From Azospirillum thermophilum (GTDB lineage: Bacteria > Pseudomonadota > Alphaproteobacteria > Azospirillales > Azospirillaceae), in contig NZ_CP029353.1 of NCBI RefSeq assembly GCF_003130795.1, forward strand, positions 1,317,501 through 1,381,500: a stretch of 64,000 nt of DNA. The letters are read 5' to 3'. How positions within the stretch are numbered: position 1 is the stretch's first letter; every line of letters begins with the position of its first letter. Below, piece after piece: positions 7,325 through 36,536 of this stretch. The notes beneath the pieces are model-generated. The model saw only the letters and a list, made by a program, of their open reading frames with translations, searched no databases and was not told where the DNA came from. Made by a program: the position numbers and the translations under genes.

Positions 7325-8656
7325 CAGGGCTCCGAAGTCGGGTTAACGCTGGTTTACGAACGGCACGGTTTCTGATTCGGTGGGGCCGAACCGGATCGGG
7401 GGTGCCGTGCCATGAGTTCCATCGCAGCCGAATTTGGTCAGAAATCGCGTCTGAAGGCGCTGCTGGATCATTTTTCGCTGATCGACGATCCGCGCGATCC
7501 GTGGCGGGTGGCCTATCCCTTGCCGGAGATTCTGCTTCTGGCGGTCTGTGGGACGATCGCCGATTGTGAGGATTATGAGGCGATCGCAGCGTGGGGCGAA
7601 GCCCGGCTCGATTTTCTGCGGCGGTTTCAGCCCTACCATCACGGGGTGCCGAGCGGACGCTGGCTGACCGTGTTCATGAACCGGATCAACCCGTGCCTGT
7701 TCCAGGACTGCTTCACAGCCTGGGTGCGCGAGGCTTGGCCCGACCGCCCCGAGCTTGTCGCCATCGACGGCAAGACCTCGCGGCGCAGCCATGACCGCAG
7801 CCGCGCTCAAGCCCCTCTCCACTTGGTGTCGGCCTTCGCCACCACCAGCCGTCTGGTGCTCGGGCAGGAAGCCGTCGAAGACAAGGCTGGCGAACTCGCG
7901 GCCATTCCCGTTCTTCTGGAGCGCCTGGCGGCCGACGGCGGCCTCACGGGAGCGATCGTGACCATCGACGCCATCGCCTGCAACGCCACCATCGCCCAAG
8001 CCATCCGCGACGCCGGGGCCGACTACCTGCTGGCGGTCAAGGCCAACCAGCCGACCCTGCGCGATGAGATCGAAACTTACTTCGCCGAGGCCCCGGACGT
8101 GGCCCTCGAGCACGCCACCGACATCGACAAGGGCCATGGCCGGATCGAGCAGCGCACGGTCACGGTCGCCCGCGAGGTCGATTGGCTGACCGGCGAGCGC
8201 CGCTTCCCCGGCGAGGTGCGTCTGCCCGCCGTCGCCTCGATCATTCGGGTTGGCAGCAAAGCCGAGTTGAAGGACCGCTGCCGCTTCGACACCCGCTACT
8301 ACGTTTCTTCCGCCACGCTGAGCGCCCAGGCAGCGGCTGAGGCCATTCGGGGGCATTGGGGCATCGAGAACCGGCTGCATTGGGTTCTCGACGTCGTCTT
8401 CACCGACGACCAGTCCCGCTTGCGCAAGGGACATGGCGCTCAGAACATGGCCGTCGTCCGCCATTTCGCCATCAATCTCGTCCGCAAGGCCGAGGAACCC
8501 GCCCGGCCGCGCTCGGGACTGCGGCGCGCCACCAAAAAACCGGCCAAACCCAAAGCGACAAGCATCAAGCTCCGACGAAAGCTGGCGGGATGGGACACCG
8601 ATTACCTCGACGCCATCCTTGCCGCCAAAATCCGTTAACCTGGATTCGGAGCCCTG
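7325..8656 (+). mobile_element. ISAs1-family insertion sequence, intact, 1332 bp
   Basis: Terminal inverted repeats are clear: the left end starts CAGGGCTCCGAA and the reverse complement of the right end starts with the same 12 bases; both then reach GTTAACG after a five-base mismatch. A perfect 10-bp target duplication, CGTTTTTCCC, flanks it at 7315-7324 and 8657-8666. The full transposase lies inside. The intact duplication and open frame point to a recent insertion. It separates the sugE riboswitch from the trpL control region. Confidence 0.95.
7412..8638 (+). CDS. ISAs1-family transposase
   Basis: 408 residues, a DDE transposase of the ISAs1 (H-repeat) family. Visible catalytic contexts are Asp in ELVAIDGKTSRRS, Asp in IVTIDAIACN, and Glu in the GIENRLHWVLDVVF segment near the C-terminus. 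The ATG at 7412 is 87 bp inside the left end, and the frame stops 18 bp before the right end. Full length, so probably active. Confidence 0.95.
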   Translation: MSSIAAEFGQKSRLKALLDHFSLIDDPRDPWRVAYPLPEILLLAVCGTIADCEDYEAIAAWGEARLDFLRRFQPYHHGVPSGRWLTVFMNRINPCLFQDCFTAWVREAWPDRPELVAIDGKTSRRSHDRSRAQAPLHLVSAFATTSRLVLGQEAVEDKAGELAAIPVLLERLAADGGLTGAIVTIDAIACNATIAQAIRDAGADYLLAVKANQPTLRDEIETYFAEAPDVALEHATDIDKGHGRIEQRTVTVAREVDWLTGERRFPGEVRLPAVASIIRVGSKAELKDRCRFDTRYYVSSATLSAQAAAEAIRGHWGIENRLHWVLDVVFTDDQSRLRKGHGAQNMAVVRHFAINLVRKAEEPARPRSGLRRATKKPAKPKATSIKLRRKLAGWDTDYLDAILAAKIR

Positions 8657-8734
8657 CGTTTTTCCCGGCAGCCTTGCGCCGCCTGCGTCGTGACGATAGC
8701 CTTCTCCTGTCGGAGGCCGGAGCGCGCCCCGGCC

Positions 8735-8755
8735 ATTGTGCAGCCGACGCACAAC
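8735..8755. promoter_or_regulatory. Distal dyad of the trpL upstream module
   Basis: ATTGTGC (8735-8741), seven-base spacer, GCACAAC (8749-8755). The same dyad with the same spacer occurs upstream of the Kef-type antiporter (29204-29224). Candidate operator for an unidentified regulator. Confidence 0.5.
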
Positions 8756-8818
8756 GGACGTACCCGGACGATCTCCGGCAAGTCCTTGACTATCCTCTGA
8801 AAATGACGGGTGAAGCGC

Positions 8819-8852
8819 ATTGTGCGGCAAATGAGGTCCGCACAACGCGCAC
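8819..8852 (+). promoter_or_regulatory. Proximal 34-bp element of the trpL upstream module
   Basis: ATTGTGCGGC, 11 variable bases, then GCACAACGCGCAC. All 23 fixed bases and the spacing recur on the minus strand at 29142-29109 upstream of the Kef-type gene. It ends 69 bp before the trpL start and lies 63 bp downstream of the distal dyad. Read as an inverted repeat it is ATTGTGC-N14-GCACAAC. Confidence 0.55.
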
Positions 8853-8884
8853 CATCCGGCACGGGAACGGACCCGGCGGACCTG

Positions 8885-8914
8885 CTTGACAAGCGGCAGG
8901 CCCTGTGGCGAAGT
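8885..8914 (+). promoter_or_regulatory. Candidate trpL promoter
   Basis: CTTGAC at 8885-8890, followed by A, matches the alphaproteobacterial -35 consensus. The -10 region about 17 bases on is poor. Placed this way, transcription would begin at or very near the trpL ATG at 8922, giving a leaderless message, as described for rhizobial trpL. Only the -35 is convincing. Confidence 0.4.
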
Positions 8915-8921
8915 CGGGGCC

Positions 8922-8972
8922 ATGACGACGTTTGCGCTCCTCCTGTCGCACCGCTGGTGGTGGCCCGCTTAA
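8922..8972 (+). CDS. trpL: trp leader peptide
   Basis: A 16-residue reading frame, MTTFALLLSHRWWWPA, with three consecutive Trp codons. Ribosome stalling here under Trp shortage is the sensor of transcription attenuation. The stop codon lies inside a hairpin (GGCCCG 8962-8967 with CGGGCC 8974-8979), and a terminator hairpin follows at 9029-9055. This is the layout known for trpE(G) in rhizobia and Azospirillum. No strong Shine-Dalgarno is seen. Confidence 0.88.
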   Translation: MTTFALLLSHRWWWPA

Positions 8973-11735: not shown

Positions 11736-12950
11736 CCACGGCTATCGCATTTGAGCGAGGATTGAACGGGCGTAGTCGTCGGACCATCCGGCGCGCTTGC
11801 GTCTGGCGCGGATGGAGTCGTCGTTTTTCGCGGCGCGCACGACGTTGAGGGCGAGCTTTCGCAGGATGGCGAGGTTTTCGGGGCCATGGTCCTTGCGGTT
11901 GCGGGCGCGGTCCTCGTCAAAGCTGGTGTCGAGCACCCAATGGACGGCGGCCTCGATGCTCCAATGGGCGCGCACGGCGCGGGCCAGGGCTTTGGCATCC
12001 AGTCGAGCGGAGGAGAGATAGAGGGTGCGGGTGGTCGTCGTGCGCTGGTCGGCCGCGGTGACGGTGCGCTCGATCAGGCCCAGGGTCTTCAGGCCCGGCA
12101 GGGCGGCCTCGTCGGGAAAGCGGCGGTCGGAGGCCAGCCACGCCACCTCCGGGCTGGTCCAGTGCCGGCGAACCTCGATGCGGCCGTGATCGGCGTCGGT
12201 GGTGACGTGGGCGTCGCCCAACGCCGCCGCCGGGTCGGCGAAGTAGCGCTCCACCTCGGCCCGCAGCGCCGGGCGGTTGTCCTTGAGCGGGAACAGCCAG
12301 TCGCCACCCCGCTCCAGAATGGTCTGCGCGGTCTGCGCCTGACAATGAAGGGCGTCGCCGGTGACCAGCACGCCGTTGAGGTCGAACAGTTCCAGCAACG
12401 CCCGCGCCGCGGTGATCTCGTTCTCGCCCGCCGCCACCGCCCGCTGCCCCACCACCATCCGGGCGCCGGAGGCAAACGCGGTGACGACATGCAGGGCCGA
12501 GCGGCCGGCGGCCCGATCGAAGGAGCCGCGCAGCGTCTTGCCGTCGATCGCCAGCACTCCGGCGCCATCCTCGCCCAACTGGCCGAGAAATTGCTCAAAG
12601 CAGCGCGCGAGCGCCGCCGGGTCCAGCAAGCGGAAGATGCGTGAGAAGGTGTCGTGGCTGGGCAACCCGCCCGCCAGTTCCAGAAACTCCGCGAACAGCG
12701 CCCGCCGGTCGCGGGCGAACAGGGCGAAGTCCACGCAGCTTTCCGCCCCGCAGATCGATGCCGTCAGCGCGATGGTCAGCACCTCCAGCAGGTCGTGACG
12801 ACGGGCATTGCCCGTTCGCGGATCGGGTAGCCCTTGAAAGGAAATGCGAAACACACCGGCCATCGACACAGTTCCTCTGCCTTGGGCCGATAGTCAGAAT
12901 CCATTTCCACCCACGACGCTACTCCTCTTTTTCAAATGCGATTCCCGTGG
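11736..12950 (-). mobile_element. Second ISAs1-family insertion sequence, intact, 1215 bp
   Basis: Ends are an imperfect inverted repeat: CCACGGCTATCGCATTTGA on the left and, as reverse complement of the right end, CCACGGGAATCGCATTTGA. A perfect 8-bp target duplication CCCGGCGG flanks it (11728-11735 and 12951-12958). Its ends and transposase differ from the element at 7325-8656, so the two are separate insertions. It splits the gap between gapR and pntAA. Confidence 0.93.
11742..12863 (-). CDS. ISAs1-family transposase
   Basis: About 373 residues, a DDE transposase with Asp in GVLAIDGKTLRGSFD, Asp in LVTGDALHCQAQT and Glu in HWSIEAAVHWVLDTSFDED. Start is the ATG at 12863 with GAGGAA ten bases upstream; a GTG at 12869 is also possible. 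The stop lies six bases inside the left end of the element. It shares the family fold with the other transposase here but is clearly a different lineage. Confidence 0.94.
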   Translation of the reverse strand: MAGVFRISFQGLPDPRTGNARRHDLLEVLTIALTASICGAESCVDFALFARDRRALFAEFLELAGGLPSHDTFSRIFRLLDPAALARCFEQFLGQLGEDGAGVLAIDGKTLRGSFDRAAGRSALHVVTAFASGARMVVGQRAVAAGENEITAARALLELFDLNGVLVTGDALHCQAQTAQTILERGGDWLFPLKDNRPALRAEVERYFADPAAALGDAHVTTDADHGRIEVRRHWTSPEVAWLASDRRFPDEAALPGLKTLGLIERTVTAADQRTTTTRTLYLSSARLDAKALARAVRAHWSIEAAVHWVLDTSFDEDRARNRKDHGPENLAILRKLALNVVRAAKNDDSIRARRKRAGWSDDYARSILAQMR

Positions 12951-29028: not shown

Positions 29029-29108
29029 CTGTTCCCGCCCGTTGTCTTGCCCCGCTCCAGTATGAGGCAAATCGTCGCAGAGCAGGTAGGGGGCGGATGG
29101 CCGGCGTT

Positions 29109-29142
29109 GTGCGCGTTGTGCAGCGTTCTTCCGCCGCACAAT
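29109..29142 (-). promoter_or_regulatory. Proximal 34-bp element upstream of the Kef-type gene
   Basis: Minus strand: ATTGTGCGGC (29142-29133), 11 bases, GCACAACGCGCAC (29121-29109). Identical at all 23 fixed positions to the element at 8819-8852 before trpL. It ends 80 bp before the gene start. Confidence 0.55.
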
Positions 29143-29203
29143 GGATTCTGGTCGAGATTGTATTGTGAAATCAACGCATTGGCGGAACCGTTCGTCCACG
29201 GTC

Positions 29204-29224
29204 ATTGTGCGCGGGATGCACAAT
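29204..29224. promoter_or_regulatory. Distal dyad upstream of the Kef-type gene
   Basis: ATTGTGC (29204-29210), seven bases, GCACAAT (29218-29224). It lies 61 bp from the 34-bp element, compared with 63 bp at the trpL locus. Between them a TTGA sits 32 bases before the element, as a TTGAC does at 33 bases before trpL. The rest of 29029-29372 holds no gene; a long imperfect hairpin at about 29288-29346 has no T tract. Confidence 0.5.
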
Positions 29225-29372
29225 GCAGACGTGAGGGGTGCCGGGCGCACCTATCGCGTTGATGGAACGACTGTATCAGCCTGATCGGGATGGGGCAAGC
29301 CGGTGCGCTTCGAGCGACCGGGGCTGCCCCTCGCATCCCATCCCCTCTCCACCGGAGCGTGTGGTCCGCCCC

Positions 29373-34695: not shown

Positions 34696-36536
34696 ATCGG
34701 CATAGGGGGCGACCCGAGAAGGTCGCACCCCTGCCACACCACCCGGCATGCGGGTCCGCACCGGGCGGTTCGGGGGATTGAGGTCATGCGAGCCTGGGCA
34801 GTCCGAGTTGGTCTGCCCATTTGATCGTGAGGACTGCATTGAGAAGCTTGCCGCTGTTGCCCCACCAGGGTCGGCCATTGGCCGCGATTTGTTGGGCGAC
34901 GGCGGGCTTGGCCCCTCTGGCCGTCAGTTCCCGGAAGATGGTCTTCCCCCGCTTCCACTGCTTGAGCTGAATGGCCCGCAGCCGGTGGCGTATCCATTCG
35001 TCCAGCGTTCGCCGGACCTTTGGAGTTTGCGCCAGTCGGAAGTAGGCTTTCCAGCCCAGCAGGAAATCGCGCAGCCTCGCCACCACCGCGGCCATCGACC
35101 GTCCCGTCAGCCGGGGCGTCAGGTCGCGGATGTGGTCCTTGAACGCCGTGATCGCCTTGTCGGCGACCCTCCGCCTGACCTCTCCCTTCGGTCCGGCCCA
35201 GAAGGCATAGCCGAGGAATTTGCGGCCGAAGACGGGGGCCACGGCGCTCTTGGCTTCGTTCACCGTCAGGTGCAACCGGCCATGGAGGCGCCGCAGCAGG
35301 GCCATCACCCGCTCTCCCGCCCGACGCGACCGCACATGGACGTTGCAGTCGTCGGCGTAGCGGCAGAAGGCATGGCCCCGGCGTTCCAGTTCCTTGTCCA
35401 CCTCGTCCAGGATCAGATTGGCCAGCAGCGGCGACAGCGGTCCCCCTTGCGGGGAACCCGTCCGACGCCGTGCGACCGCCCCATCGTCCTCCATGACGCC
35501 GGCATCCAGGTAGGCCCGCACCAGCCGGATGATGGCCGGGTCCGGGACCCTCTTGGACAGACGGTCGATCGGAAGGTCATGGTCGATCCGGTCGAAGAAC
35601 TTCTCCAGGTCCACATCCACGACGATCCGCCGGCCGGACTGCACGAAGCTTTGCGCCGCAAGGACGGCGTCGTGCGCACTCCGGCCGGGACGGAAGCCGT
35701 AACTGTGGTCGCTGAAGCCGGGATCGAGGATCGGCTGGAGAACTTGCAGCATCGCCTGTTGGATCAGGCGGTCCGTCACCGGGGGAATGCCGAGTTCGCG
35801 CTCGCCACCCCCAGGTTTCGGGATCATCACGCGACGCACCGGCTGCGGCCGGTACGTCCCCTCCCGCAGGCTGTCGCGGATCGCCGGCCAGCGGCTCTTC
35901 AGCAGTGCGGCGGTCTGGTCGATGTCCAGGCCGTCCACTCCCGCTGCACCCCCGTTGGCCCGCACCTTCCTCAACGCTCGCAGAAGGTTCTCTCGCGCCA
36001 GGACCGCATCCAGCAGCCCCGGCCCCATGGCGTCCGTGTCCCGGCGCGGGCGCTCGGCTTCGTCAAGACGGGCCTCCGGACGGGCTTCACCCGTCCTCCT
36101 CTCCCGCCTCCCGGATCGCTCCGGCATCTGACGCATGGCCTCACGCATCGTCGGGTGGACTCCATTCTCCCTCGTTCGGCCCTTCGGTCCGGCTCGCGCC
36201 TCGCCTACTATGGCCTCTGCTGACTTCCCGCTCCGGCTCGACGCCGTCGCCCTTTCAGGCGCAAGGCGGGATCTCCCCAGGTAAGAACGCGTTCCTTCGC
36301 TGCACGACCGCCGGATTTACGCCACCGACCCTTGGTCACAAGAGCTTCGCGGTTCCATGCCCGCTCGCCCTGGTCGGCACCGCCTCATATCCGGTTCTTG
36401 TTCATCGGCCCGCAGCTGCGATCCACGCTTCCTTCCCACGGTCGGTTGCCCTTCCGCAGTTGCGCTTCTCTTCGTTCGCCGTGATCAGCTTACGGAGGGA
36501 CTTACACCCTCAAGAACGCGCCCATGCTGGGCGCAC
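34696..36536 (-). mobile_element. Group II intron, about 1841 nt
   Basis: Minus strand. The 5' end GTGCGCCCAGCATGGGCGCG at 36536 is the bacterial group II intron start (GUGCGCC). Near the 3' end lie a domain V-like hairpin (about 34772-34734; ACCGCCCGGTGCGGACCCGC with GCCGGGTGGTGTGG) and a domain VI stem (GGGGTGCGACC/GGGTCGCCCC) with the bulged-A context CTATGCC, ending CCGAT at 34696. The maturase frame lies in domain IV. It was inserted in the short space between the degP stop and the shared degP/hutG terminator. Exact 3' end may vary by a base or two. Confidence 0.92.
34784..36148 (-). CDS. ltrA: Group II intron reverse transcriptase/maturase
   Basis: 454 residues. Reverse transcriptase motifs RRVMIPKPGGGERELGIP, SYGFRPGRSAHDAV, VDVDLEKFFDRIDHD, SPQGGPLSPLLANL and the catalytic YADD (264-267). 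The maturase X domain (GIIM) follows (YFRLAQTPKVRRTLDEWIRHRLR). No HNH endonuclease domain is visible, so mobility would rely on reverse splicing at exposed single-stranded DNA. An ATG at 36136 is an alternative start. Uninterrupted. Confidence 0.95.
   Translation of the reverse strand: MREAMRQMPERSGRRERRTGEARPEARLDEAERPRRDTDAMGPGLLDAVLARENLLRALRKVRANGGAAGVDGLDIDQTAALLKSRWPAIRDSLREGTYRPQPVRRVMIPKPGGGERELGIPPVTDRLIQQAMLQVLQPILDPGFSDHSYGFRPGRSAHDAVLAAQSFVQSGRRIVVDVDLEKFFDRIDHDLPIDRLSKRVPDPAIIRLVRAYLDAGVMEDDGAVARRRTGSPQGGPLSPLLANLILDEVDKELERRGHAFCRYADDCNVHVRSRRAGERVMALLRRLHGRLHLTVNEAKSAVAPVFGRKFLGYAFWAGPKGEVRRRVADKAITAFKDHIRDLTPRLTGRSMAAVVARLRDFLLGWKAYFRLAQTPKVRRTLDEWIRHRLRAIQLKQWKRGKTIFRELTARGAKPAVAQQIAANGRPWWGNSGKLLNAVLTIKWADQLGLPRLA

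Follow-up and report, generated by a model that had tools for sequence, protein, structure and literature searches.

REP and BIME elements are dispersed intergenic palindromes with non-autonomous copies, whose partner, a RAYT gene (for an IS200/IS605-type tyrosine transposase), lies beside its cognate repeat; protein and repeat are described as co-evolving and species-specific (PMC2817692). The element described here has a similar arrangement, with a partner gene, for a helix-turn-helix (HTH) protein of an undescribed family, beside its site cluster and co-variation between the two (18 of 31 HTH loci). Unlike in REP-RAYT, the partner protein has no more than weak Pfam matches, to HTH domains, and the element is asymmetric, about 126 nt long, equipped with a promoter motif and present in 61 copies rather than over 100. 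Membership of that system was rejected because no Y1_Tnp transposase (Y1/HUH, PF01797) was detected in either of the two genomes searched, its own and that of A. soli, in a search whose control was positive in 5/14 genomes. A phage small terminase (TerS) with its packaging site offers a second comparison, as the partner gene adjoins a DNA cluster of several half-sites and its best fold matches are phBC6A51 and viral terminase small subunits (all E > 0.001); unlike a TerS/pac pair, there are many chromosomal copies. With a repressor and its dispersed operators, the family shares rigid half-site clusters near promoters and a likely regulator gene. In contrast to such a regulon, the core lies 29-141 bp downstream of the promoter motif, the genes scanned have no functional theme, and position is little conserved between species. 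Like MITEs, the units are short, dispersed and without a gene, but they have a conserved promoter motif and no young copies. Among the papers listed by the one open library searched, none was recognisable as describing this element.

The window, the whole stretch of 64,000 nucleotides that was analysed (C2:1317501-1381500 of the Azospirillum thermophilum genome), contains two copies. The preliminary description had reported a repeated two-part module before trpL and before a Kef-type antiporter gene, and direct reading at both sites found the parts as given. At trpL, on the plus strand, the first part is ATTGTGC (8735-8741), N7 and GCACAAC (8749-8755), and the second, 63 bp later, is ATTGTGCGGC (8819-8828), N11 and GCACAACGCGCAC (8840-8852). 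The same parts occupy 29224-29109 of the minus strand before kef. Its further details also hold: the 23 fixed bases of the second part agree between the copies, the start of TTGA precedes the second part by 33 bases at trp (8786) and by 32 at kef (29174), and the module ends 69 bp before the trpL ATG (8922) and 80 bp before the kef ATG (29028). Both modules extend beyond the ends first given, since a third half-site (R3) can be added, and the TTGA of each is a portion of a conserved CAA-N4/5-TTGA motif. Matches to TTGTGC-N5..13-GCACAA number two in the window, against none expected (100 shuffles).

In a search with model R1, whose seed alignment includes both copies, the core element at trp spans 8734-8861 on the plus strand (G000:C2:1326234-1326361, E 3.7e-20). 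It consists of dyad 1 (8736-8754: L1 TTGTGC 8736-8741, N7, R1 GCACAA 8749-8754), a conserved middle motif, CAAGTCCTTGA, at 8779-8789 (alignment A1, 26 copies), and dyad 2 (8820-8854: L2 TTGTGC 8820-8825, N14, R2 GCACAA 8840-8845), which ends in the third half-site, R3 (GCACCA, 8849-8854), N3 after R2. The promoter-like motif upstream, found by expectation maximisation (EM), comprises GTTTTTCCC, TTGCGC (8674-8679), N17 and TAGCCT (8697-8702), together 8658-8702. Outside the element lie TTGACA (8886-8891) and the trpL leader peptide (8922-8972), both on the plus strand. The kef core spans 29100-29225 on the minus strand (G000:C2:1346600-1346725, E 7.3e-22), with dyad 1 at 29205-29223, dyad 2 at 29107-29141 (L2 29141-29136, R2 29121-29116, R3 29112-29107) and the EM motif at 29270-29298, read as TTGCCC (29298-29293), N17 and TACAGT (29275-29270).

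These two modules are members of a family of 61 full-length copies in the A. thermophilum genome (6.78 Mb, nine contigs), distributed over seven of the contigs (C1, C2, C3, C5, C6, C7 and C8). The model, built from 26 aligned copies, gave 70 matches at E 0.1 or better, of which the 61 at E 1.1e-7 or better were kept; the other nine (E 2e-4 or worse) overlap kept copies. Likewise, ATTGTGC-N7-GCACAA with up to two mismatches matched 83+73 times on the two strands, against 5+7 for the reversed-pattern control. The supposed control module common to trpL and the Kef-type gene is indeed a repeated two-part module with half-sites of DNA type, but with 61 copies it is not particular to those two genes.

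The core has the order L1-N7-R1, middle, L2-N14-R2-N3-R3, with half-sites TTGTGC/GCACAA. Its middle carries conserved aCGaACG and CAA-N4/5-TTGA motifs; in alignment A1 (26 copies), no variation occurs at the AA of CAA or at the TG of TTGA. Of the half-sites, R1 and L2 hardly vary, and L1 and R3 are less strictly kept. Spacing is rigid, with an L2-R2 gap of N14 in 59/59 copies measured (13-15 allowed; two of the 61 not fitted) and a span of 108-110 nt for L1 through R2 among the 26 seed copies; the N7 of dyad 1 was set by the search pattern in both of these measurements, and N6 occurs in its place in own copy L113 and in several A. soli copies. Conservation sets in abruptly at L1 and stops about 16 nt past R2. 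Pairwise identity among the 61 copies averages 58% and reaches at most 77%, so near-identical recent copies are absent. Since core and promoter motif have been kept even though there are no young duplicates, their persistence through this divergence probably reflects selection.

The promoter-like motif was recovered by EM over the 61 upstream regions as GTTTcc-N8-CTTGCC-N18-TAnnCT. In leave-one-out scoring it exceeds the 95th percentile of controls, three sets drawn from the same loci, in 53/61 copies, and in these 53 it ends 29-141 bp before the core. A strict sigma-70 scan (TTGACA/TATAAT) of the trp copy region returned no promoter, either for the element or for trp. The EM motif from A. soli is a -10-like TAnnCT with a CCATCAACGnCCGA leader, scoring at least 10 in 32/39 copies, three of them inside an HTH gene (an uncontrolled count). 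An apparent second dyad lies between leader and TTGTGC core in nine A. soli copies (L065, L117, L119, L126, L133, L136, L144, L145 and L150), in which, by eye, variants of TGCAAC or TGCGAC go with GTTGCA or GTCGCA, so units may be modular.

Gene calls from a home-made gene finder leave 60 of the 61 cores clear of predicted genes, the exception, L110, overlapping one by 38 nt. With the element as E and neighbouring genes as arrowheads, the arrangements are >E> at 28 copies, <E> at 15, >E< at 10 and <E< at 7, with one lacking a left gene. Between tandem genes, 28 copies are co-directional and 7 opposed (p 0.0005). The right-hand gene is co-directional at 44/61 copies (p 0.0007), and the remaining 17/61 face a convergent gene. 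Of the 44 co-directional genes downstream, 20 were scanned in Pfam and have no functional theme in common; given these unrelated functions, a gene-specific regulon was rejected.

The model matched in five of 61 genomes: A. thermophilum itself, A. soli (49 matches, 39 kept after leaving out ten with E 1.8e-4 or worse), Azospirillum sp. SYSU D00513 (7), G022 (1) and G009, whose match (E 0.005) resembles coding sequence and is probably false. The other 32 Azospirillum and 24 further genomes gave no match in this search, whose filters lose weak matches. An exact-pattern scan of genome_contigs, which represents 84,980 species by a single genome each and possibly lacks the A. thermophilum genome, returned 13 stretches, 10 from A. 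soli CC-LY788 and 3 from SYSU D00513. A near-mode search of a plasmid collection with L035 gave three records with short matches. When masked flanks of 1.5 kb on each side were compared with those of the A. soli copies, only 2 of the 61 own copies had orthologous flanks (L114-L142 and L052-L136).

Conservation at trpL and kef orthologues, which the preliminary description had named as support for its proposal, was not found. The TTGTGC core is absent from all 28 readable trpE(G) loci of relatives (L267, with only 111 bases upstream, is left out of this count) and from all 29 mrp-side loci of the mrp-kef junction; either count would overlook cores that have other half-sites. Among the mrp-side loci, kef aligned in seven, where mrp and kef are close neighbours. 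TTGACA and the trpL leader, 3' of the element site, recur in 7/7 relatives printed. An empty site was sought at kef, where the intergenic DNA of relatives is too diverged for a clean reading. By the mark that the preliminary description itself gave, absence from the trpL and kef orthologues, the family is a dispersed repeat, although it has retained core and promoter motif. Such modules should not be taken for gene-specific operators. Other GC-rich palindromic repeats, of the CCCTCTCCC or CCCTCCCC type, are present in intergenic regions of relatives (L165, L167, L171, L173, L177, L179 and L185), including mrp-kef.

A homologous HTH gene lies upstream of the core at two own loci (L093, L114) and three in A. 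soli (L121, L140, L147). The stretch that is homologous among these loci stops some 70-195 nt short of the core. The protein matches HTH_23 (E about 5e-5), just under the Pfam cut-off. The two own genes are imperfect: L114 has HTH-A and HTH-B frames, the latter without three recognition-helix residues and without an ATG at the homologous start, and L093 is frame-shifted. The A. soli gene at L140 has a stop. HTH relatives occur in 25/41 Azospirillum genomes, with up to 12 matches each, and in 6/289 genomes of the class, A. thermophilum included. Database relatives of a 238-aa member number 257. The 120 of these that were listed have no precomputed Pfam domain, go by names such as hypothetical or homeodomain-like if they are named at all, and come, where the organism is visible, from Azospirillum. 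At the HTH-B start, the frame reads Ile in L121, L140, L147 and L114 and ATG in L093 and G028. CATCACC is present in the leaders of gene-less (orphan) copies too, which suggests that these may derive from the gene start.

The half-sites appear to have been re-matched by lineage. Most A-type loci printed have TGGAAC-N14/15-GTTCCA-N4-GTTCCA, or a variant, no more than tens of bases past the stop codon, and TGGAAC-N10..18-GTTCCA-N4-GTTCCA occurs in 15/41 Azospirillum genomes, with no match for reversed controls. At two loci of G028, an HTH-B-like gene, whose protein is about 50% identical, is followed by a core whose middle is the same as that of the TTGTGC core but whose half-sites are TGCGAC/GTCGCA throughout, with a spacing of 23. 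Of the loci printed from a sister genus in this family, 2/6 carry TGCAAC-N15-GTTGCA-N4-GTTGCA; the other four have two half-sites, TGAAAC..GTTTCA (2), a partial cluster (1) or none (1). No half-site cluster was seen by eye in four loci of three other genera. Automated scoring found a lineage-type X..X'..X' cluster in 18 of 31 HTH loci (TGGAAC 10, TTGTGC 4, TGCGAC 2, TGAAAC 2), ten having none and three being off-type; in the scoring control, any match occurred in 21/280 base-shuffled stretches of 650 nt. The recognition helix changes with the half-site: HRTTIW or AHKTIW accompanies TTGTGC (4 loci), GPDALRNAW accompanies TGCGAC (2 loci), and SRTTLWRAY or SRSTLWRAY accompanies TGGAAC or TGAAAC (12 loci). 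The helices and half-sites form only about three groups by lineage, so this match is correlative.

Substitutions within the core bear on whether the half-sites are read as DNA or as RNA. In the own genome, the three commonest changes, read as DNA, are the same on left and right (T2C, T1C, T4G), the two spectra correlate (rho 0.72, p 0.0009), and tolerance is strand-symmetric, a transversion included. The own pairs (60/61 copies) have 0-2 Watson-Crick, 5-102 broken and 4-31 G.T cells each, with 0, 42 and 4, respectively, for L1-R1. For A. soli (36/39 copies), rho is 0.30 (p 0.23), pairs have 0-6 Watson-Crick-compensated cells, and L2-R3 has none compensated, three G.T and one broken. Over both genomes, a pair has 1-31 G.T and 1-102 broken cells. 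The pair counts leave out one own and three A. soli copies, whose patterns were not fitted. RNAalifold found both sides changed in 0/13 pairs among 26 copies, and an Rfam search of the whole window gave no match at either module at gathering cut-offs; without covariation or an Rfam family, an RNA hairpin was rejected. A scan that also missed the trp attenuator there reported no terminator for the trp copy. The symmetry of the own-genome spectra, the rarity of compensation and the concerted change between lineages together favour recognition by a trans-acting protein of double-stranded DNA rather than of an RNA stem. Symmetric tolerance, almost no compensation and rigid spacing likewise make a multi-subunit DNA-binding protein at the module plausible, and the neighbouring HTH protein would be the obvious candidate for recognising the half-sites.

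The preferred reading, held tentatively, is that the modules are dispersed gene-less ('orphan') derivatives of a unit made up of an HTH gene and its binding site, each transcribed across its own site. The full unit, represented in Azospirillum and the sister genus, would comprise the HTH gene and an X..X'..X' cluster of near-fixed spacing at or just past its 3' end; the orphan form would comprise the promoter, about 30-140 bp of free sequence and the core. The protein presumably acts as an oligomer that binds these half-sites on double-stranded DNA, its recognition helix setting the half-site. Least certain is the effect of binding, which might control, by blocking or looping, transcription begun at the element's own promoter; the elements would have spread as non-autonomous units. 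Counting against the orphan-unit reading are the few own HTH genes for 61 sites, the G.T cells (4-31 per own pair), which would keep an RNA pair, the HTH loci with no automated match (10 of 31) or an off-type one (3), the HTH-B frames open through the core, the A. soli spectra (rho 0.30, p 0.23), the unreadable empty site at kef, the negative strict promoter scan at the trp copy and the fold matches, none of which reaches E < 0.001. If it holds, this would be a dispersed-element system whose partner is no known transposase, in a well-studied plant-associated genus, and the protein helices and DNA half-sites would form a natural series of re-matched pairs. It opens the questions of how specificity shifts jointly in a multi-copy DNA-binding protein and the genomic sites that go with it, and how short elements spread with no recognised transposase gene beside them.

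The strongest competitor to orphan units, although itself rather unlikely, is a family of paralogous small RNA genes, each with a promoter, a variable 5' part and 3' hairpins that pair or bind protein, the product being the RNA. Small RNAs of A. brasilense are the subject of a published report (PMC7685610). Retention of the promoter motif in 53/61 copies and the fixed orientation, with 28 copies running with and 7 against the genes of tandem pairs, would suit such genes, as would the extended complementarity in A. soli, for example TTGTGCAGATT..AATCTGCACAA (by eye), and the A. soli L2-R3 cells, of which only one is broken. Within genomes, however, changed half-site pairs are almost never compensated, own-genome tolerance is strand-symmetric down to a transversion, and Rfam has no match at either site. 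It is quite unlikely that the modules are MITE relics moved by some transposase, with L1 and R3 as terminal inverted repeats and the promoter incidental. Their intergenic and mostly non-orthologous positions fit relics of this kind, as do the A. soli ends ATCGTTGTGCA..TGCACAACGAT (by eye), but near-identical copies are absent (maximum 77%), core motif and promoter were retained while the remainder diverged, and the promoter stands outside the core at a variable distance.

An operator whose regulator serves trp, kef and some other genes would account for the co-directional downstream gene at 44/61 copies (p 0.0007) and for half-sites of DNA type. It is nonetheless very unlikely, with the core missing from readable orthologous loci (0/28 trpE(G), 0/29 mrp-side), 17/61 copies convergent and no common theme in the 20 of 44 downstream genes scanned. 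The HTH-B frames raise a different issue, because those of L114, L121 and L147 are open through the core and the database proteins P0121 and P0122 include it, so that the core could be coding there. One frame also gives [IV]V[HQ]P.HN in many copies (by eye). That the core is the decayed 3' coding end of HTH-B, peptide-conserved in units that kept the gene, is still highly improbable: core length differs by 1-2 nt, orphans have in-frame stops, A-type loci have their stop codon before the dyad, and the half-sites change in concert between lineages.

For the HTH protein P0001, AlphaFold2 gave a model in which confidence is limited to about residues 31-125, an HTH followed by a long helix. Foldseek against the PDB ranks nine chains of 2ao9 (phBC6A51) first (E 0.03-0.1), and terminase small subunits are among its viral matches (E 0.0086 or worse); no PDB or viral match reached E < 0.001, and a profile search of PDB sequences turned up no convincing match. 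The structure of phBC6A51 is counted among those of small terminases (PMC11331095). It is conceivable, if unlikely, that an ancestor of the Azospirillaceae captured a phage small-terminase-like protein, which with its adjacent packaging-like site became a self-spreading system of protein plus site. Units bearing the HTH gene would then be autonomous and the 61 orphan promoter-core units their non-autonomous dependents, with helix and half-site matched anew time and again in each lineage, much as in an arms race.

Apparently gene-less TGGAAC-type units were also seen by eye in other Azospirillum (L214, L218, L219, L221/L235, L222 and L228). The 230 bp printed upstream contain no HTH gene end in, for example, L214, L218, L221, L222 and L228, and L214 has three tandem units of about 77 bp. 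Several such units have an upstream motif resembling AGGA..CCTA or TCCTATA (by eye). At least two TGGAAC matches (L229, L232) lie inside a coding gene.

The window also contains matches to Group II intron D1-D4 (36179-36455, minus strand). The TTGTGCG of dyad 2 resembles a group II 5' end; no link was drawn, as A. soli copies read TTGTGCA. Two DDE_Tnp_1 transposase genes (Pfam), presumably ISAs1-like, bracket the trpE(G) region at 7412-8638 (plus strand) and 11742-12869 (minus strand), and the first of them ends just 5' of the trp copy of the element.
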